NCBI RefSeq assembly: GCF_000716545.1
Contig: NZ_JNWZ01000002.1
Coordinates: 133,091-197,090, forward strand
DNA: 64,000 nt
Origin: Kitasatospora phosalacinea
GTDB lineage: Bacteria; Actinomycetota; Actinomycetes; Streptomycetales; Streptomycetaceae
Direction: 5' to 3'
Shown here: in pieces, positions 47,794 to 57,491 of the stretch
Position numbering within the stretch: the stretch's first letter is position 1
Layout of the letters: every line of letters begins with the position of its first letter
Notes under the pieces: model-generated
What the model was told of the DNA's origin: nothing
What the model saw: only the letters and a program-made list of their open reading frames with translations
Databases searched by the model: none
Translations under genes and position numbers: made by a program

Positions 47794-48737
47794 ATGACCG
47801 CCGTGACCCCCGAGAAAGCCCCGTCCCTGAGACCGCCGGCGGACGGCGTCGGCGAGCTGACGATCGTCCCGCACCGCCGCCCCTGGCGGCTGGTGACCGG
47901 CCTGGCCGCGCTGGTGCTGTCCGCCCAGTTCCTGCACGGGCTGGCCGTCAACCCCGGCTGGGACTGGCCGACCTTCCGCACCTTCGTGTTCTCCGACAGC
48001 ATCCTGCGCGCGGTCGGCGTCACGCTCCAACTCACCGCCTACGGAACCGTCCTGGGCTTCGCGCTGGGCGCGGTGATCGCCGCGCTGCGGCTGTCCGGCA
48101 GCCCGATCCTGCGCACCATCGCCTGGACGTACGTGTGGGCGTTCCGCTCGATCCCGCTGATCGTGCAGCTGGTGTTCTGGTTCAACCTGGCGTACCTGTA
48201 CCGGCGGATCGGGATCGGCATCCCGTTCGGCCCGAGCTTCGTCTCCTTCGGCACCATGGACCTGCTCGGCGCACTCGGCGCGGCCGTCCTCGGCCTCGCC
48301 CTGCACCAGGCCGCGTACGCCGCCGAGATCATCCGCGGCGGGGTGCTCGCGGTGGACGCCGGACAGCTCGAAGCGGCCGCCGCGCTCGGCATCCCGAGGT
48401 TCCGGCAGGCCTGGCGGATCGTGCTGCCGCAGGCCATGCGCGGCATCCTGCCGAACGCCGCCAACGAGGTGATCTCGCTGTTCAAGGGCACCTCGATCGT
48501 CTACGTGATGGCGATCGGCGAGCTCTTCTACCAGGTCCAGGTGATCTACGGCCGCACCGGCCGGGTGGTGCCGCTGCTGATGGTCGCCACCGTCTGGTAC
48601 GTGCTGCTGACCACCGCCCTCTCGCTCGTCCAGTACTGGGTCGAGCGCTACTTCGCCCGCGGCAGCGAACGCCACGCGCCCCCCACCCCCTGGCAGCGGC
48701 TGCGCGCCGCCGTCACCGAGATCAAGGAGAAGCGGGC

Positions 48738-48741
<4 letters not shown>
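47794..48741 (+). CDS. Polar amino acid ABC permease of the sulfur operon
   Basis: 315 aa, HisMQ-type permease with [21 protein letters not shown] as the EAA loop. Starts 13 nt after the binding-protein stop and overlaps the ATPase start (ATGA). May pair with the permease of the divergent operon as a heterodimer. Confidence 0.92.
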
Positions 48742-49514
<773 letters not shown>

Positions 49515-49544
49515 AGTCCCCTCCCGACAGAAGGAGTCATCCGC

Positions 49545-50537
49545 ATGTCCGTCTACCGCCGCCGCACCGTCGCCTCGGCCGCCGCCGCCCTCGCCGCCGC
49601 CCTGCTGCTCTCCTCCTGCGGCTCCTCCGACAACGCCTCCGCCGACCTCGGCGCCAAGAAGGAGGGCACCGCGCCCAACGGCGTGAAGGTGAACCTGACG
49701 CCCGACCAGAACCGGGTCACCACCCCGAAGGTCGACGCGATCGCCGCACTCGTCCCCGACGAGATCCGCCGAAGAGGCACCCTCCAGGTCGCGGCCAACG
49801 TCGGCACCGTCCCGCCGCTGGGCTTCTACGCGACCGACGACAAGACGGTCATCGGCACCGAACCCGACCTGGCGTACCTGATCGGCGACGTGCTCGGCCT
49901 CAAGGTCGAGATCGACCCGGTCTCCTGGGAGAACGTCTTCGTCGGCCTGGACAGCGGCAAGTACGACGCGGGCATCACCAACGTCACCGTCACCGAGGCC
50001 CGCAAGGAGAAGTACGACTTCGCCACCTACCGGCTCGACATCCTCGGCTTCGAGGCCAAGAAGGGCGGCAGCTGGAAGGTCAAGGGCCCGGCCGACGTCG
50101 CCGGCCACACCATCGGCGTCTCCTCCGGCACCAACCAGGAGAAGCTGCTGCTGGCCTGGAGCGACCAGGACGTCAAGAACGGCCTCAAGCCGGTGGACGT
50201 GAAGTACTACCAGAACGCCTCCGACTACTACCTCGCCCTCGGCTCCGGCCGGATCGACGCCTGGCTCGGCCCCAACCCGGCCGCCGCCTTCCACTCCGCG
50301 CAGACCGGCGAGACCGAGGTGATCGGCACCTACTCCGGCGCCGGCGACACCGTCCTGGGCAAGATCGCCGCCACCACCAAGAAGGACAACGGCCTGGTCA
50401 AGGCGCTCAACGAGGCCATCAACGAGACCATCAAGAACGGCACCTACGCCCAGGTCCTCAAGCGCTGGGGCCTGGACAACGAGGCCGTGCAGACCTCCGA
50501 GATCAACCCGCCCGGCCTGCCCAGGACCAACAGCTGA
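49545..50537 (+). CDS. Amino acid-binding lipoprotein 2 of the sulfur operon
   Basis: 330 aa, family 3 solute-binding protein, lipobox LLSSC (Cys25). The binding domain has GTVPPLGFYATDDKT and PDLAYLIGDVLGLKVE and differs from binding protein 1, so the transporter probably handles two ligand classes, as TcyJ/TcyK do. GAAGGAG lies before the ATG. Last gene of the operon, convergent with the STM4011 operon. Confidence 0.9.
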   Translation: MSVYRRRTVASAAAALAAALLLSSCGSSDNASADLGAKKEGTAPNGVKVNLTPDQNRVTTPKVDAIAALVPDEIRRRGTLQVAANVGTVPPLGFYATDDKTVIGTEPDLAYLIGDVLGLKVEIDPVSWENVFVGLDSGKYDAGITNVTVTEARKEKYDFATYRLDILGFEAKKGGSWKVKGPADVAGHTIGVSSGTNQEKLLLAWSDQDVKNGLKPVDVKYYQNASDYYLALGSGRIDAWLGPNPAAAFHSAQTGETEVIGTYSGAGDTVLGKIAATTKKDNGLVKALNEAINETIKNGTYAQVLKRWGLDNEAVQTSEINPPGLPRTNS

Positions 50538-50569: not shown

Positions 50570-51430
50570 TCACCAGCCGTGCGGGATGCGCTCCAGCACG
50601 CCGCCCGCGAACACGTCGTACAGCGGCAGCGATTCCAGGTGCACGTACCCGATGTGGCAGTCGCAGACCGCCAACGGGCAGGCGCGCGGCCGCAGTTGCT
50701 CCCGGTACGAGTCGTCGTACAGGTTGCCCAGCGGCGGCCGGACGAAGTGGCAGCGGCGCACCGTGCCGTCCCCGTCCACCGACACCACGCTCTCGCCCGT
50801 CCGGCACGGCAGGCCCGCGCTGCGGTGCGGGTGGCGGCTGTACCCGAACAGCGGGTCCAGCTCCGCCCACTCGGCCGCCCCGGCGTCGGTGTACGTCAGC
50901 CCGTCGGCCGCGTTCACCCACAGGTACACCCCCGCCGGCAGCGCCGCCCGCAGCCGCCGGGCCGCCGCCAGGTGCTCCGGCTGCCCGACCACGCCGACGC
51001 TGAACCGCACGCCCAGCGCGGTGAGTTCGGCGCACTTGGCGAGGAAGCGCTGCTCGCTCACCTGCCCCGGGTGGTACGTCACCCACAGCGCCAGCTTCGC
51101 CAGGTCCGCCTCGGCCAGCCAGCCGGTCCGGCAGCTCGCGTTGGTCTGGATCGCCACCCGCCCCAGGTGCGGCAGTCGGCTCAGCTCCACCATCGCCCGC
51201 CGGTACCAGCCGCGCACCAGCCCCTCGCCCCACGGCGTGAACAGCACCGACAGCCGCCCGTGCCGGTACGCCGCCGCCCAGGCGGTGAACCGCTCCAGCG
51301 CCGCCCGGTCGGCCCGCAGCAGCTCCGGGGTGTCGCGCCGCTTGGCGAACGGGCAGTACGGGCAGTCGTAGTCGCAGGAGGACAGCGGGCCCCGGTACAG
51401 CACGGTCAGTTCGTCCGGTGGAGTGCTCAC
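50570..51430 (-). CDS. STM4011-family radical SAM protein
   Basis: 286 aa. N-terminal radical SAM motif CDYDCPYC (Cys19, Cys23, Cys26; the C-x3-C-x2-C that binds a 4Fe-4S cluster for SAM cleavage). A Cys-rich region near 255-265 (RACPLAVCDCHIG) may hold a second cluster, as in SPASM-like enzymes. GTG start overlaps the STM4012 stop. Belongs to the conserved but uncharacterised STM4011-STM4015 set first seen in Salmonella. Last gene of the operon. Confidence 0.9.
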   Translation of the reverse strand: MSTPPDELTVLYRGPLSSCDYDCPYCPFAKRRDTPELLRADRAALERFTAWAAAYRHGRLSVLFTPWGEGLVRGWYRRAMVELSRLPHLGRVAIQTNASCRTGWLAEADLAKLALWVTYHPGQVSEQRFLAKCAELTALGVRFSVGVVGQPEHLAAARRLRAALPAGVYLWVNAADGLTYTDAGAAEWAELDPLFGYSRHPHRSAGLPCRTGESVVSVDGDGTVRRCHFVRPPLGNLYDDSYREQLRPRACPLAVCDCHIGYVHLESLPLYDVFAGGVLERIPHGW

Positions 51431-52776
51431 TTGGCCTCGTACTCCGCCATGTTGGCGCGCACCGCCGCCGAGAACAGCCGCGGCCCCACCGCGTCCGACC
51501 AGGCCAGGCCCTCCGCGCTCAGCAGCAGCCGGCCGTCCGTGCCGTCCGCCAGCCAGCCGCGGGCGGCGAACTCCGCCAGCTCGGCCGGGAAGTCCAGCTC
51601 CGGGGCGCTGCCGAAGCGCTCCCGGTAGGCCGCCAGGTCGACGCCCTCGCCCTGCAGCAGCGACTGCACCAGGTGGCGGCGGCGGGTCTCCTCGTCCGTC
51701 ATCACCCAGCCCAGCTCGGCCCGGGAGAAGTCCGGCGCGGCCACGTAGTCGTCGATGATCCGGCGCACCTCGCGGGCGTCCACCGCGTAGTCGAAGGAGT
51801 AGTGCAGCCGCGAGGTGTACGAGCGCGCCCCGCAGCCCAGGCCCACCATGCCGTCGGTCTGGCAGGCGTACTCGCCCGCGCCCGCGCTCGCGCTCGCGCT
51901 CGCCGCACCGGCCCGGCGGAACATCCGCATCGACACCTGCTCGTACCCCTCGGCCAGCAGGTGGTCGCGGCCCGCCCGGTACAGCGCCAGCCGCTGCGCG
52001 TCCCACTCCGGGCCCGACGCGTTCCCGGCGTGCCGCCCGAGGCCGGTCAGCGGGCGGACGTACAGCGGGTACAGGTACAACTCCTCCGGGCACCAACTCA
52101 AGGCAGCATCAAGGGACTTGACCCAGCTAGCGGGCGTCTGGCCGTCGATGCCGTAGATCAGGTCGATGTTCAGCACCGGGAACCCGGCCTCCCGCACCCG
52201 CCCCAGCGCCGCCTCCACCGCCGCCCGCTTCTGCGGGCGCACCGCCGACCTGGCCTCCTCGTCCAGGAACGACTGCACGCCCAGGCTCAGCCGGGTCGTC
52301 CCGCGCTCCGCCAGCACCCGCAGCCGGTCGGCCGTCGCGGTGTCCGGCGACGCCTCGACCGAGAGCGGCACCGCCCGCAGGTCCGCCCCCGTCCCCGACT
52401 CGGCGATGTCGCAGAGCCGTTCCAGCTCGGCCGCGCTCAGGTAGGTCGGCGTCCCGCCGCCGAAGGCCGCCAGCGCGAACCGGGCCCCGGGCTCCAACGC
52501 CTCCCGCACCTGCCGCGCCTGCCGCTCCAGCGCGTCCAGGTACGCCGTGGTCAGCCCCTCCGGGCTGCCGATTCGGGTGAACAGGTTGCAGAACCCGCAC
52601 CGCACCTCGCAGAACGGCACGTGCAGGTACAGCGAGAGCGCGTCCTGCTTCTCGCCCCGCCACAGCTCCGCGAGCTGCGGCCGCTCCGGCAGCGGGCGGT
52701 ACGCCGTCTTGTGCGGGTACGCGTAGACGTAGCTCTGGTACGGGGACTCGGCGGTGGCGGTGGTCGTCGCGGTCAT
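51427..52776 (-). CDS. STM4012-family HemN-like radical SAM protein
   Basis: 449 aa with the coproporphyrinogen-dehydrogenase-like layout: CEVRCGFC (Cys56, Cys60, Cys63), AFGGGTPTYLS and SVEASPDT motifs, and the HemN-type C-terminal domain. An Ala/Ser-rich insert (about 288-298) interrupts the middle. HemN relatives include heme chaperones, methyltransferases and cyclopropanases, so heme synthesis should not be assumed. ATG overlaps the preceding stop (ATGA). Confidence 0.9.
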   Translation of the reverse strand: MTATTTATAESPYQSYVYAYPHKTAYRPLPERPQLAELWRGEKQDALSLYLHVPFCEVRCGFCNLFTRIGSPEGLTTAYLDALERQARQVREALEPGARFALAAFGGGTPTYLSAAELERLCDIAESGTGADLRAVPLSVEASPDTATADRLRVLAERGTTRLSLGVQSFLDEEARSAVRPQKRAAVEAALGRVREAGFPVLNIDLIYGIDGQTPASWVKSLDAALSWCPEELYLYPLYVRPLTGLGRHAGNASGPEWDAQRLALYRAGRDHLLAEGYEQVSMRMFRRAGAASASASAGAGEYACQTDGMVGLGCGARSYTSRLHYSFDYAVDAREVRRIIDDYVAAPDFSRAELGWVMTDEETRRRHLVQSLLQGEGVDLAAYRERFGSAPELDFPAELAEFAARGWLADGTDGRLLLSAEGLAWSDAVGPRLFSAAVRANMAEYEAK

Positions 52777-54827
52777 GCGGACTCCTGCGGAGTGGCGGGA
52801 AGGACGAAGTGCGCGTACGGGACGGTCCAGACCACCTCGTGGCCGATCCGGTGGCCGGTGTAGCCGTCCTCGCCGTACGCGGTGCCGTGGTCGGAGCAGA
52901 CGATCGCGAAGCACGGGCGCCGGGCGCTCATCGCCGCGAACAGCCGCCCGACGTGCGCGTCCACGTACTCCAGCGCGGCGGCGTGCGTCTCCCGGCTGTC
53001 GCCGTCCGCGCGGGTCGCCCCCGGCAGGTGGAACCAGTTCGGCTGGTGCAGCGCCGAGACGTTGACGAACAGGAACAGCGGCTGCCCGGGGCGCTGCCCG
53101 GCCGCGACCCGCTCGGCCACCGCCACCTGCGACTCGAAGGAGGTCGGCGACGGGACGCCCAACTCCGGGGCCCAGTGGCTCTCCTGGAACAGCCCCGGCA
53201 GGACGGAGCCGAGCGGGCCCTGCTTGTTGAAGAACCCCACCCCGCCGATGCACACCGTCCGGTACCCGGCCCCGGCGAGGGCCGTCGGCAGATCCGGCGC
53301 GTCGAACACCCAGGTCCGCGACTCGGTGGTCTCCGAACCCGCGAACCGCGCCGCGAACAGCCGCGGGTGCGGCCCGTCCGGCGAGGCCGGCGTCGGCAGG
53401 AACCCGGCCAGGATCGCCTGGTGCGCGGCGTACGTGAAACTCCCCGGCGAGTGCCGCCGCTCCCAGCCGCCGGGCGGGAGCACCTTCGCGAGGTTGGGCA
53501 GGCGCCCGGCCGCGAGGAGCTCGGCGGCGACGTCGAAGCGGAGGGTGTCGAGGGTGACCAGGAGGAGGTCGTGCGAGCCGACGACCTCGTTCATGTCGGG
53601 CATCTCCCCGGACGGAACCACCGGGGGCCCGGAGCTGCTGCGCGTGGTGGCGGAACCGGAAGCAGGGACGCGCTCCGGCGGGGGACCAGCGGCGGACCGG
53701 GCCCCGCCGTTCCTCGGGCCCCTGCCGTCGCCTCCCTGCAACCGGTAGGCGGGCGAGGCGAGTTGGGCGGCGTAGGTGTCGAGGCCCGGGGCCGGCCCCT
53801 CCGGGAGGCCGGGGAGGTTCGGGAGGAGGTCGCCGAAGGCGTTGACCTCGGCGACCAGGGCGCGGCGCCAGTGGGAGTGGGGGAGGAGGTCGACGCCGAC
53901 CATGGGGGCGTGCGGGAAGCACCTCGCGGCGGCCTCCGCGGTGGCGAGCAGGTCGGGCCAGTGCTCGCCGGCGGCGGCCCGGGCGAGGGCGGTCTCGCCG
54001 CGGGCGCCGCCGAGGTGGAGGTTGGTCACGGGGTGCCGGCTGGTGCGGACCACCGCGTGGGTGGCGCGGCCGCCGACCACCAGCACCCGCAGGTCCGCCG
54101 CGCGGCCGTGCTGGCCGGACTTGGGGATCCAGCGCTCGACGTGCAGGCCCTCGGGGGCGAGCCGGTCGACGAGTTCGGCGACCTCCGCCGCGGAACGGTA
54201 GCGGCGGACGGCCAGCGAGTTGTGCAGCCCGTCCGGGGCGAGCTCCACCGAGGTGGTGGCCTGGACGCGGCCGTGCGGGCCGAACTCCAGCGCCACCACG
54301 CCGGACGCGGAGGAGCCGTGCAGCGGCTTCAGGAACACCCGGCGCATCCCGGCGTCCGCCAGCCGCTCCCGCAACTCCTCGAAGCCGGACGGGAGTCCGC
54401 CCGGCAGCGCGGGCGGCACCGGCACCCCGGCGGCGGCCAGCCGGGCGTGCGTGCGCCGCTTGTCGAACATGACGGCGATCTCCTCCGGGTCGCCGAGCAG
54501 CCGCACCCCGGGCCGGGCGGCCAGCCCGCGCAGCGCCGCGGTGACGCCCGCGTACCAGGCGGGGCCGCCCTCGACCCGGGTCGCGGCGTAGCCCGCGCCG
54601 AGGACGGGGCCGCGCAGCAGCCGGTCGGCCTCCGGGTCCTCGCCGGGGGAGTCGGGCCGGACCACCGTGCCGGGCGGCAGCTCGTACCGCCCGCGCAGCA
54701 GGTCCGACCAGGGCAGCACGGCGGGTTCCGGCCGTCCGGCGGCCCGGGCCGCGGCGGCGAACAGGGTGACCCGCCGGTGCCCCGGGCAGCCCAGGACGAC
54801 CAGGGGCGACGGCTGGTGCGTGGTCAA
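52773..54827 (-). CDS. Fused STM4014 (ATP-grasp-like) and STM4013 (sulfatase-like) protein
   Basis: 684 codons without a stop. Residues 1-365 are STM4014: ATP-grasp-like, with MFDKRRTHARLAAAGVPVP, FLKPLHGSSASGV and GVDLLPHSHWRRALVAEVNAFGDLLPNL (metal-site Glu/Asn). A Pro/Ser/Arg linker (366-408) leads to STM4013 (412-684), an alkaline-phosphatase-superfamily hydrolase with LVTLDTLRFDV, SALHQPNWFHLP and CSDHGTAYGEDG. In most genomes these are two genes. An internal ATG (53594) with GGGGAG upstream would give a normal 273-aa STM4013, so both a fusion and a separate product are possible. The first codon is TTG (54827), with poorly spaced SD. Confidence 0.85.
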   Translation of the reverse strand: MTTHQPSPLVVLGCPGHRRVTLFAAAARAAGRPEPAVLPWSDLLRGRYELPPGTVVRPDSPGEDPEADRLLRGPVLGAGYAATRVEGGPAWYAGVTAALRGLAARPGVRLLGDPEEIAVMFDKRRTHARLAAAGVPVPPALPGGLPSGFEELRERLADAGMRRVFLKPLHGSSASGVVALEFGPHGRVQATTSVELAPDGLHNSLAVRRYRSAAEVAELVDRLAPEGLHVERWIPKSGQHGRAADLRVLVVGGRATHAVVRTSRHPVTNLHLGGARGETALARAAAGEHWPDLLATAEAAARCFPHAPMVGVDLLPHSHWRRALVAEVNAFGDLLPNLPGLPEGPAPGLDTYAAQLASPAYRLQGGDGRGPRNGGARSAAGPPPERVPASGSATTRSSSGPPVVPSGEMPDMNEVVGSHDLLLVTLDTLRFDVAAELLAAGRLPNLAKVLPPGGWERRHSPGSFTYAAHQAILAGFLPTPASPDGPHPRLFAARFAGSETTESRTWVFDAPDLPTALAGAGYRTVCIGGVGFFNKQGPLGSVLPGLFQESHWAPELGVPSPTSFESQVAVAERVAAGQRPGQPLFLFVNVSALHQPNWFHLPGATRADGDSRETHAAALEYVDAHVGRLFAAMSARRPCFAIVCSDHGTAYGEDGYTGHRIGHEVVWTVPYAHFVLPATPQESA

Positions 54828-54843
54828 CTCTCCGCCGCCCCGC

Positions 54844-55794
54844 CTACTCGGAGACGGCGACGTAGCGCCAGTTGTCGCCCGGGTCCCCGGCCCCGGAGAG
54901 GTCGACGGCGACGCCGGGCAGGGCCTCGCGCAGCCGCTGCTGCATGCCCTCGGTGAGGTAGTGGTGGTGCAGGTCCAGGGTCTTCAGGTGGGTGAGCGGC
55001 TGACCCTCCAGCAGCGCGGCCGCACCCTCGTCGCCGAGCGCGCCCATGGACAGCGACAGCCCGGTCAGCCGGGGCACCACCGGGGCCTGGGCGACCAGCG
55101 CGGCGATCCGGTCCTGGGACTCGGAGTTCTGCAGCCCCAGGTACGTCAGCGCGGGCAGCCTGGCGCCGGACAGGAACGGGGCGAGGTCCTCCAGCGTCCA
55201 GTCGCCGCCGTAGTTGGCGACGCCGAGCCACAGCTCCAGCCGCTCCAGCGCCGGGAAGTCGCAGGCGCCGACCGCGCGGACGACCGAGGCGGGCAGGCCG
55301 CCCGCCTCGAAGCGCAGCGCCTTCAGCTTCTCGTGCCGCAGCGGCTTGAGGCCGAGCCGCTCCTTGTCGTCGTAGTCCTCGCTGGCGCCGCGCACCACCA
55401 GCTCCTCCAACTGCGGGAAGGTCTCGAACACCGGCGTGACGTCGCACATCTGGATCCAGGAGATCTCGCACTCCTCGAAGGTGATGTCGCCGAGGAACAG
55501 CGCGCGCAGCGCGGGCAGCCGGTCGGCGGCGGCCAGGATCAGCGGCAGCGCCTCGGACAGCGGCTCCGGCTCCTCCGGGAACCAGCGGCCGAGCACCAGC
55601 GCGGTGACCTGTGCCGGGTCGACGGTGTCCAGGAACTTCTGCCACAGCTCGGCGAAGCCCTGCTCGTCGTCCCAGTCCAGGGCGATCCGCCAGGCGGTGC
55701 CGCCCGCCGCCGGGAGCTCCCCCTTCTCCGCGGCCGCCCGGAAGTCGGTGACCGGGAGCCCGTGGAACTCCTCGACGTGGTTGTTGACGGTCAT
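54844..55794 (-). CDS. STM4015-family leucine-rich protein
   Basis: 316 aa. The middle and C-terminal parts contain leucine-rich repeat units (LPALRALFLGDITFEEC, FPQLEELVVRG, LPALTYLGLQNSE, LTGLSLSMGALGDEG, LKTLDLHHHYL), a solenoid suited to protein binding. No signal peptide. First gene of the operon; GAGGAG lies before the ATG and the next gene starts 16 nt after its stop. It may present a substrate to, or scaffold, the radical SAM enzymes (inference). The 214-bp upstream gap separates it from a divergent gene pair. Confidence 0.88.
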   Translation of the reverse strand: MTVNNHVEEFHGLPVTDFRAAAEKGELPAAGGTAWRIALDWDDEQGFAELWQKFLDTVDPAQVTALVLGRWFPEEPEPLSEALPLILAAADRLPALRALFLGDITFEECEISWIQMCDVTPVFETFPQLEELVVRGASEDYDDKERLGLKPLRHEKLKALRFEAGGLPASVVRAVGACDFPALERLELWLGVANYGGDWTLEDLAPFLSGARLPALTYLGLQNSESQDRIAALVAQAPVVPRLTGLSLSMGALGDEGAAALLEGQPLTHLKTLDLHHHYLTEGMQQRLREALPGVAVDLSGAGDPGDNWRYVAVSE

Positions 55795-56008: not shown

Positions 56009-56335
56009 GTGTACCGCCAGGGAGACGTACTGATCGTGCCGGTCGCGCCGGGCGCCGTCCCGGGCGCCGTCGCGCACATGGCGCGCCAGCCGCGGGACGC
56101 CAGGGGGCGGCTGGTGCTGGCCCTCGGCGAGGTGACCGGGCACGCCCACGCGGTGGTCGGCCCGGGCGAACTCGTCCGCGAGGGCGGCCCGTTCTCCTTC
56201 GCCTGGCTGCACCTGCCGGAGGGCGGCAGGGTCGTCCACGAGGAGCACGCGGCGATCGTGCTGCCCAGCGGCTGGTTCCGGGTGGTGCGCCAGCGCGAGT
56301 ACACGCCCGGCGCGGTCCGCATGGTCGCCGACTGA
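56009..56335 (+). CDS. Small conserved protein of unknown function
   Basis: 108 aa, predicted all-beta. It contains the motifs YRQGDVLIVPV, LALGEVTGHAHAV and VVHEEHAAIVLPSGWFRVVRQREYTP; the His-rich GEVTGHAH is its most striking part and could bind metal. GTG start with GGGGAGG upstream. It precedes the DUF6745 gene by 46 bp in what appears to be one operon, divergent from STM4015. Confidence 0.78.
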   Translation: MYRQGDVLIVPVAPGAVPGAVAHMARQPRDARGRLVLALGEVTGHAHAVVGPGELVREGGPFSFAWLHLPEGGRVVHEEHAAIVLPSGWFRVVRQREYTPGAVRMVAD

Positions 56336-56381: not shown

Positions 56382-57491
56382 ATGACCAGCCAGCTGACCG
56401 GCCGCCCGGCCGACCTCTCGGTGGCCCACTGGCGGGCCGTCGCCGCCGCCACCGGCCCCGCCGACCGGGCCACCGCCGAACAGGCCGTCAAGGACGCCTA
56501 CCGGGCCGCCGGGCTGGCGGAGCCCGAGGAGTTCCGCTGGTACCCCTCGCCGCGCGCCGCCCTCGCCGAACTCCTCGACCGCGGGGACGGGTTCGGGGCG
56601 AGCGTGCGCGAGCGGGTGCGCACCGCCGCCTGGGAGCGGGCCCGCACCGCCGCCCTGGCCGCGCTCGGCCCCACCGGCTGGGCCGAGCTGTGGAACACCA
56701 CCGGCGCCGAACTCGCCGCCACCACCGCGCTGCCCGCCGAACGCGTCCGCACCGCGCTGCTCGACCACTTCGCCCCCGAGCCCGAGCCGGTCCCCGACTG
56801 GCGCGAGGCCCGCAAGTCCGAGAACCGGGCGGCCCGGCTGGCCGCCGTCCAGGGCCGCGCCACCGTCCGGCTCGCCCTGCTGGAGGCGGTGGCCGGCCAG
56901 CACGACGCCGCCTGGCTCGCCGCCTTCGACACCGCCGGCACCGGCGACGCGGCCCTCGCCGCGCTGGCCGGCGTCGCCCGCCAGACCGGCTGGTGGTGGC
57001 CGTACGAGCGCACCGTGCTGCTCACCGAACGCCCCACCGCCCTGCACCGCGACGAGGCCGGCCGGCTCGACCGCGCCGACGGCCCCGCCCTCGCCTACGC
57101 CGACGGCTTCGCCCTGCACGCCTGGCGCGGCATGCCCGTCCCCGCCGACTTCCCCGAGCGGCTGACCGGCCTCACCCCCGAGCGGATCCGCGCCGAGGAG
57201 AACGCCGAACTGCGCCGCGTCATGCTGGAGCACTTCGGCTACGACCGCTACCTCGCCGAATCCGGCGCCGAACCGCTGCACCGGGACGAGACCGGCGTCC
57301 TGTGGCGGATCCAACTCCCGAACGACGAACCGGTGGTGATGGTCGAGGTGGTCAACTCCACCCCCGAACCGGACGGCACCCACCGCACCTACTACCTGCG
57401 CGTCCCGCCCGGCACCCGCACCGCCCGGGCCGGCGTCGCCTGGACGTTCGGCGTCGAGGAGGCCGACTACCAGCCGCAGCGCGAGACCTGA
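56382..57491 (+). CDS. DUF6745-like protein
   Basis: 369 aa, rich in Ala and Arg, with a helical first half and a C-terminal beta part (LHRDETGVLWRI, EVVNSTPEPDGTHRTYYLRVPP). It looks like the actinobacterial DUF6745 family, whose members often accompany LRR or STM4015-type genes; that link is from memory. No catalytic motif, signal peptide or membrane helix. GGAGA precedes the ATG. Function unknown. Confidence 0.75.
   Translation: MTSQLTGRPADLSVAHWRAVAAATGPADRATAEQAVKDAYRAAGLAEPEEFRWYPSPRAALAELLDRGDGFGASVRERVRTAAWERARTAALAALGPTGWAELWNTTGAELAATTALPAERVRTALLDHFAPEPEPVPDWREARKSENRAARLAAVQGRATVRLALLEAVAGQHDAAWLAAFDTAGTGDAALAALAGVARQTGWWWPYERTVLLTERPTALHRDEAGRLDRADGPALAYADGFALHAWRGMPVPADFPERLTGLTPERIRAEENAELRRVMLEHFGYDRYLAESGAEPLHRDETGVLWRIQLPNDEPVVMVEVVNSTPEPDGTHRTYYLRVPPGTRTARAGVAWTFGVEEADYQPQRET

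Follow-up and report, generated by a model that had tools for sequence, protein, structure and literature searches.

The window analysed here is a stretch of 64,000 nucleotides from Kitasatospora phosalacinea (contig NZ_JNWZ01000002.1). It contains a minus-strand operon of four open reading frames (ORFs) that encodes five protein families: STM4015, STM4014 and STM4013 fused in one frame, STM4012, and STM4011. We propose, with a probability of roughly 55%, that STM4015, a leucine-rich repeat (LRR) protein, is a carrier that would be loaded at its C-terminal glutamate by the ATP-grasp protein STM4014 and then modified by two radical S-adenosylmethionine (SAM) enzymes and a phosphodiesterase-like hydrolase. 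The proposal builds on the co-conservation of the five families, a near-invariant terminal Glu on a variable linker, the specificity of the tail, the LysX/RimK-like fold of the STM4014 model and the occurrence of an LRR plus ATP-grasp unit. It thereby supports the idea of an earlier note on this DNA that the LRR protein serves as scaffold or substrate, and narrows it to one residue, the C-terminal Glu of STM4015.

The C-terminal tail of STM4015

A first alignment, of 15 STM4015 proteins drawn from seven bacterial groups, contains 27 invariant columns; the terminal Glu is among them and is the only one beyond residue 270. This ending holds on a larger scale: Glu is the last residue of 109 of 113 STM4015 copies and, once redundant sequences are removed, of 74 of 76. 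The set of ORFs with an STM4015 match numbered 103, of which 92 were kept and 11, scoring 100 bits or less, were left out; close relatives including the window protein (P0001-P0120), of which 120/120 end in Glu, were excluded from the independent counts. The tail follows the consensus R-Y-[VI]-A-V-[GSA]-E, in which R, Y and V are conserved besides the terminal E, and the window protein ends WRYVAVSE. Tyr stands at position -6 in 65 of the 76 tails, while 74 have Gly, Ser, Ala or Thr at position -2. The stretch before the tail is variable in sequence and rich in acidic residues (mean Asp/Glu content of 37% at positions -24 to -8), and 40 to 53 residues lie between the last alignment column with at least 85% identity and the C-terminus. 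The final residues of STM4011, STM4012, STM4013 and STM4014 from the same loci vary.

The tail can also be followed at the DNA level. A tail-plus-stop pattern gave 46 matches in 41 relatives of the window genome, 44 of them at STM4015 genes (a tally made by eye from the coordinates of patterns and genes), and a reversed control pattern gave 1. Of the two other matches, one lies in an 18-residue frame (L263) and was taken as chance; the second is its twin in genome G039, with identical 24 bases. The pattern is present in 23 of 27 operon-positive genomes and in 0 of 14 others (Fisher 8.7e-8). STM4015 genes away from the operon retain the tail (L132, L133, and L135). Both tandem and orphan copies would suit a system in which one enzyme set serves several carriers. 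Three Herpetosiphon loci (L057, L062, and L064) hold four-copy STM4015 arrays in which only the first copy lacks the terminal Glu; one such copy ends SEYLQD.

A second set of LRR proteins, chosen by STM4014 instead, has the same last residue with one exception. In the genome family of a planctomycete (G160), STM4014 passes its cut-off in 14 of 95 genomes, in canonical form in three and in diverged form in 11; two of the 14 (G159 and G160) are the already-known loci L055 and L053, and the regions of the remaining 12 were fetched. These were searched with models from whose training sequences the tails had been cut. Fifteen WGR-LRR genes adjoin diverged STM4014, and 14 of them end in Glu, mostly in a tail of the form [YF]LxxGDxE. 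All four canonical STM4015 genes of this set end in Glu as well, three of the four lying on contigs already seen (L265 and L267 are apparently the same contigs as L075 and L051), and L276 is too short to show an LRR gene. Among other LRR proteins of that planctomycete group only 1 of 24 ends in Glu (seven genomes; Fisher 1.4e-8, relatedness uncorrected). This control comprised 30 loci among more than 200 LRR_6 matches, reduced to 24 distinct closed tails by omission of three duplicates and of L288, which lies in the cluster, L290, which is open, and L306, which was not resolved. The seven control genomes contribute 10 of the 15 WGR-LRR genes, and 10/10 of these end in Glu; the remaining five come from three genomes without an LRR control.

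The pairing of WGR-LRR proteins with diverged STM4014, as opposed to STM4015 with canonical STM4014, shows that ligase subfamily and tail type change together. The feature common to both tail types is the terminal Glu. LRR and ATP-grasp genes also occur without radical SAM enzymes within the DNA fetched, namely in L273, L275, and the second units of L128, L129, L131, and L138, the last four in genomes that carry the full operon elsewhere. LRR plus ATP-grasp is thus a smaller unit of the system.

Conservation and enzymes of the operon

The gene set is co-conserved as one system, well beyond the range from Salmonella to Streptomyces that the earlier note had given for it. STM4011 matched 13 plasmid records, and in eight of the nine regions opened, from Streptomyces, Deinococcus, Methylobacterium, Paenibacillus and Salmonella, the order is 4015-4014-4013-4012-4011 with one or two 4015 genes; in the ninth, from Bacteroides (L041), 4013 and 4012 are reduced to fragments. 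A scan of one genome per species gave at least 363 STM4011 relatives, of which 80 loci were kept; according to their record titles they belong to Pseudomonadota, Planctomycetota, Myxococcota, Chloroflexota, Verrucomicrobiota, Bacteroidota, Cyanobacteriota, Actinomycetota, Armatimonadota, and Acidobacteriota. All five families are present in 43 of 49 complete loci (those above 20 kb), in which STM4011 is present by construction because the loci were chosen by it. The same order is the commonest there and exact in 23, and several loci from planctomycetes and verrucomicrobia show the modules 4013-4012-4011 and 4015-4014 in other arrangements. A check free of this selection bias screened 41 genomes close to that of the window for each family and found STM4015 in 27 and STM4011 in the same 27 (in G027 as a fragment only), with STM4014 over its cut-off in 26 of them. 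The possibility that the genes are not co-conserved was checked directly, and they do occur together. Only 3 of 119 sampled Actinomycetota genomes passed the STM4011 cut-off, so the distribution is patchy. A contig in IMG/VR (L232) carries a complete five-gene operon of Bacteroides type and is probably bacterial DNA within the viral set.

Judged by its AlphaFold2 model (predicted local distance difference test, pLDDT, of 94.4), STM4014 is an ATP-grasp protein of the ligase type with a LysX/ArgX/RimK-like fold. The solved structures nearest to the model are LysX/ArgX and RimK, the best RimK being tied with LysX. The ATP-grasp ligation suggested earlier agrees with this assignment, the loading itself being proposed by analogy.

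The hydrolase domain, STM4013, was previously placed in the sulfatase/phosphatase superfamily, and it does pass the cut-off of Pfam PF00884 Sulfatase (37.8 versus 25 bits). The residues Asp19, Thr57, Asp238, His239, and His251 are kept in 42/42 sequences, with metal and nucleophile roles as generally known for the superfamily. A true sulfatase is less likely, since Thr57, placed via weak alignments, stands where the Cys or Ser that becomes formylglycine is expected; in these alignments Thr57 falls in the Thr region of the nucleotide pyrophosphatase/phosphodiesterases (NPPs), and choline sulfatase has Cys there. A Thr at the nucleophile position, as in NPPs, makes a phosphate ester or diester the likelier substrate, as far as sequence can tell. 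The "hydrolytic release" of the earlier note is consequently unsupported as stated, because the active-site pattern resembles that of a phosphodiesterase or phosphotransferase, not a peptidase or amidase.

The C-x3-C-x2-C motif noted before in both radical SAM enzymes is invariant in 55 aligned STM4012 and 10 aligned STM4011 sequences, and the two are indeed different enzymes, the former HemN-like and the latter SPASM-like. STM4012 resembles HemN (1olt) and NocN (9p2u) in profile matches to the PDB and falls under the HemN and HemW cut-offs. Its identification as HemW was rejected, as it scores 134.8 bits against the TIGR00539 cut-off of 205.4 and as HNxxYW, the heme-binding motif of HemW according to an excerpt of PMC11834973, occurs in 0/55 STM4012 sequences. 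In STM4011, the C-terminal cysteines 209, 227, 251, 256, and 258 are invariant in the 10 aligned sequences, and this part weakly matches SkfB (6efn, E 2.7e-4). A gene for a Cof-type haloacid dehalogenase (HAD) hydrolase overlaps STM4011 in Salmonella (L040, 8864-9598). STM4011 bears a long C-terminal extension in Bacteroides L041 (7965-9530) and in L232 (5608-7161); the one in L041 looks HAD-like, judging by a motif.

Predicted pathway and rival explanations

In the pathway that we propose, the LRR domain of STM4015 would be the docking body, and its acidic, variable linker would present the short Glu-ending tail. By analogy with its structural neighbours, STM4014 would activate a carboxylate of the C-terminal Glu and join to it an amine-bearing substrate. 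Radical chemistry on the tethered group by STM4012 and STM4011 may follow, and STM4013 may remove or transfer a phospho group; these steps are the weakest of the pathway. The product might stay on the LRR protein or be freed by an enzyme encoded outside the operon. The ligation, the nature of its substrate, the order of steps and the product are thus all putative.

Several observations weigh against this reading. Four STM4015 copies lack the terminal Glu, namely the first copies of the three Herpetosiphon arrays and one copy in L130; so do four of the 11 excluded weak ORFs, the other seven having it, and a weak WGR-LRR match in L275. Because the sequences are related and some of the tails hardly differ, neither the counts nor the Fisher values reflect independent events. 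Glutathione synthetase and D-Ala-D-Ala ligases score only 2-3 Z units under LysX in the comparison with the STM4014 model, so that the acceptor cannot be read from the fold alone. STM4014 also scores under the RimK cut-off (TIGR00768, 33.9 versus 143.4 bits) and far under that of LysX (TIGR02144, LysX_arch, 23.5 versus 275.6 bits). Finally, no peptidase-like release enzyme was recognised among the operon genes.

The C-terminal Glu could, moreover, be a docking signal. The tail would then be recognised by STM4014, by the radical SAM enzymes or by another client, with the chemistry taking place on another molecule and the LRR protein as scaffold only. Partner binding through short C-terminal motifs is common, the LRR fold is itself a binding fold, and the tail conserves R, Y, and V as well as E. 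However, what the two tail types have in common is the terminal Glu, and the neighbouring ligase is similar to enzymes acting on a C-terminal Glu; we regard docking as unlikely, though it deserves weight. Less probable again is that the radical SAM enzymes act on something else: these enzymes and STM4013 lie close by in the 43 of 49 complete loci with all five families, and the low RimK score of STM4014 also speaks against it.

We see only a slim chance that the system resembles ribosomally synthesised and post-translationally modified peptides (RiPPs) or pyrroloquinoline quinone, with STM4011 cross-linking residues of the STM4015 tail (e.g. Tyr and Glu) and STM4014 making an intramolecular ester or amide as in graspetides. 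The SPASM-like cysteines of STM4011, the frequent Tyr at -6 and the appearance of PsnB graspetide ligases from rank 15 in the Foldseek list for STM4014 would fit such chemistry. Yet the tail shows no conserved internal nucleophile, because the Tyr is not invariant and position -2 is shared among four residues, and planctomycete tails differ widely. A role of the operon in heme handling, with STM4012 as a heme chaperone or heme enzyme, finds a starting point in the HemN/HemW-related sequence of that protein but is hardly credible, given the score and the missing motif described above and a separate HemW elsewhere in the host genome (228 bits, HNELYW). For the same reasons, the case of STM4012 acting alone as a heme chaperone, which was to be set against the original idea of a joint machine, fails.

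Loading of an LRR carrier at its C-terminal Glu would thus account for two differently chosen sequence sets, and as far as literature searches show it would be new. More tentatively, and with odds somewhat short of even, the system may represent a new class of carrier-tethered biosynthesis, in which diversified LRR carriers are Glu-loaded by tail-matched ATP-grasp subfamilies and the load is rebuilt by two radical SAM enzymes into a protein-bound cofactor or a released metabolite, across about ten or more phyla. If the final residue of STM4015 carries an adduct, this would be a carrier pathway on an LRR scaffold that extends the logic of LysW and the pearlins to a large family represented in soil bacteria, Bacteroides and Salmonella, and it would hint at a metabolite or protein-bound cofactor yet to be discovered. 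The reading makes these widespread uncharacterised genes cheaply checkable, through the mass of a single protein's final residue. The matched subfamilies of ligases and tails would also be a natural set for learning how ATP-grasp enzymes choose protein tails.

Operon layout, neighbouring genes and related systems

The coordinates of the operon (Table 1) agree with the overlapping minus-strand arrangement described in the earlier note, with 4-nt overlaps at 52773-52776 (ATGA) and 51427-51430 (GTGA) and 16 nt (54828-54843) between STM4015 and STM4014. All five of its domains are there, spread over four genes through the fusion of STM4014 and STM4013, which is natural in this operon and, among the loci mapped, is found in the window only. 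Every curated NCBIfam cut-off is exceeded. The proteins most similar to STM4015 and STM4011 of the window belong to Kitasatospora, in line with a host of that genus. ATP-binding cassette (ABC) transporter genes at window 47794-50537 run towards the operon and encode, among others, a permease and a family 3 solute-binding protein.

Table 1. Features of the operon and its flank, with scores and, in brackets, NCBIfam cut-offs in bits
Feature	Position	Strand	Remarks
STM4011 family radical SAM protein, SPASM/twitch-like C-terminal cysteines	50570..51430	-	GTG start; NF038073 402 bits (200)
STM4012 family radical SAM protein, HemN-like	51427..52776	-	NF006067 636 bits (380)
STM4014-STM4013 fusion ORF	52773-54827	-	684 aa; TTG start
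STM4013 domain, C-terminal part of fusion	52773..53603	-	Alkaline-phosphatase-superfamily hydrolase, Thr at nucleophile position; NF038075 416 bits (250)
STM4014 domain, N-terminal part of fusion	53739..54827	-	ATP-grasp ligase, LysX/ArgX/RimK-like by model; NF038074 401 bits (175)
STM4015 family LRR protein	54844..55794	-	316 aa; proposed carrier; NF038076 373 bits (275)
Codons of STM4015 C-terminal tail RYVAVSE	54847..54867	-	Last Glu is the proposed ligation site
Small partner protein	56009..56335	+	108 aa; GExTGHxH and HxEH motifs, C-terminal Asp; alignment of 20; phrog_27831 E 1.1e-13
DUF6745 protein	56382..57491	+	369 aa; PF20530 378 bits; partner of small protein

The call for a neighbourhood survey for further partners was borne out in part. 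It yielded a pair missed before, a small protein of about 100 residues and a DUF6745 protein, which stand beside the operon also in Methylobacterium, Deinococcus, Streptomyces, and several other groups; the pair is not invariant, both genes being present in 10 of the 49 complete loci, DUF6745 alone in 1, and neither within the stretch in 38. In the near relatives, DUF6745 is found in 26 of the 27 STM4015-positive genomes (Fisher 1.1e-8). A 131-residue DUF6745 frame (L137, 8943-9338) lies in a genome (G013) without STM4011, STM4014 or STM4015 matches, as if the system had decayed there. A scan of viral contigs gave 276 relatives of the small protein. DUF6745 is present on the same strand in 61 of the 80 viral loci kept, and 18 of the other 19 have less than 1 kb after the small gene. 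Small protein and DUF6745 are thus a two-gene cassette, shared with phages, that accompanies some operons; Microcystis phages have it as well. The small protein ends in Asp in 25/25 bacterial frames and in 81/81 closed viral frames (L142-L221). Its model shows a core rich in beta structure and an end of low confidence (residues 105-108 under 50), and structure comparison gave no clear fold match. The Asp end, in this low-confidence region, parallels the Glu tail of STM4015. DUF6745 is unmentioned in the literature searched.

The NCBIfam STM4011-STM4015 families include the window genes under names without function, the STM4014-STM4013 fusion being a feature of the window. A full-text literature search, which covered few subscription papers so that prior work may exist, found neither a function for STM4011-STM4015 nor a paper on the system. 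The gene names came up only in single table rows of two Salmonella papers (PMC3844500 and PMC2784778), the former listing a sigma-54 binding site at STM4013.S of Salmonella Typhimurium in minus orientation to the ORF. LRR proteins and HemN go unmentioned in the main text of a graspetide survey (PMC8939145).

Set beside described pathways, the system as read here is a variant of carrier-protein chemistry outside the LysW and RimK families. The ligations by LysX/ArgX and RimK extend a carrier or ribosomal protein at its C-terminus. The amino-group carrier proteins (AmCPs, LysW) and their LysX/ArgX partners are alike in combining a Glu-ending carrier with an ATP-grasp protein of the same fold type. 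LysW-type carriers are small and end in EDWGE, whereas the window carrier is a 316-aa LRR protein with a RYVAVxE tail, and its operon adds two radical SAM enzymes and a phosphodiesterase-like enzyme. RimK, which acts on ribosomal protein S6 (RpsF), likewise adds to the C-terminus of a folded protein, but the window operon has no ribosomal protein and has the extra radical SAM enzymes. AmCPs use the gamma-carboxylate of their C-terminal Glu, as described in a section of PMC9303977. The same section reports that pearlin carriers have a conserved motif ending in Asp or Glu and that a radical SAM step belongs to the tmo cluster. The pearlins (TglA and TmoA) resemble the proposed system in that a ribosomal carrier gains a residue at its C-terminus and the chemistry takes place on that residue. 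They differ from it in that an aminoacyl-tRNA-dependent PEARL does the loading, a peptide serves as carrier and a protease releases the product (PMC9303977, same section).

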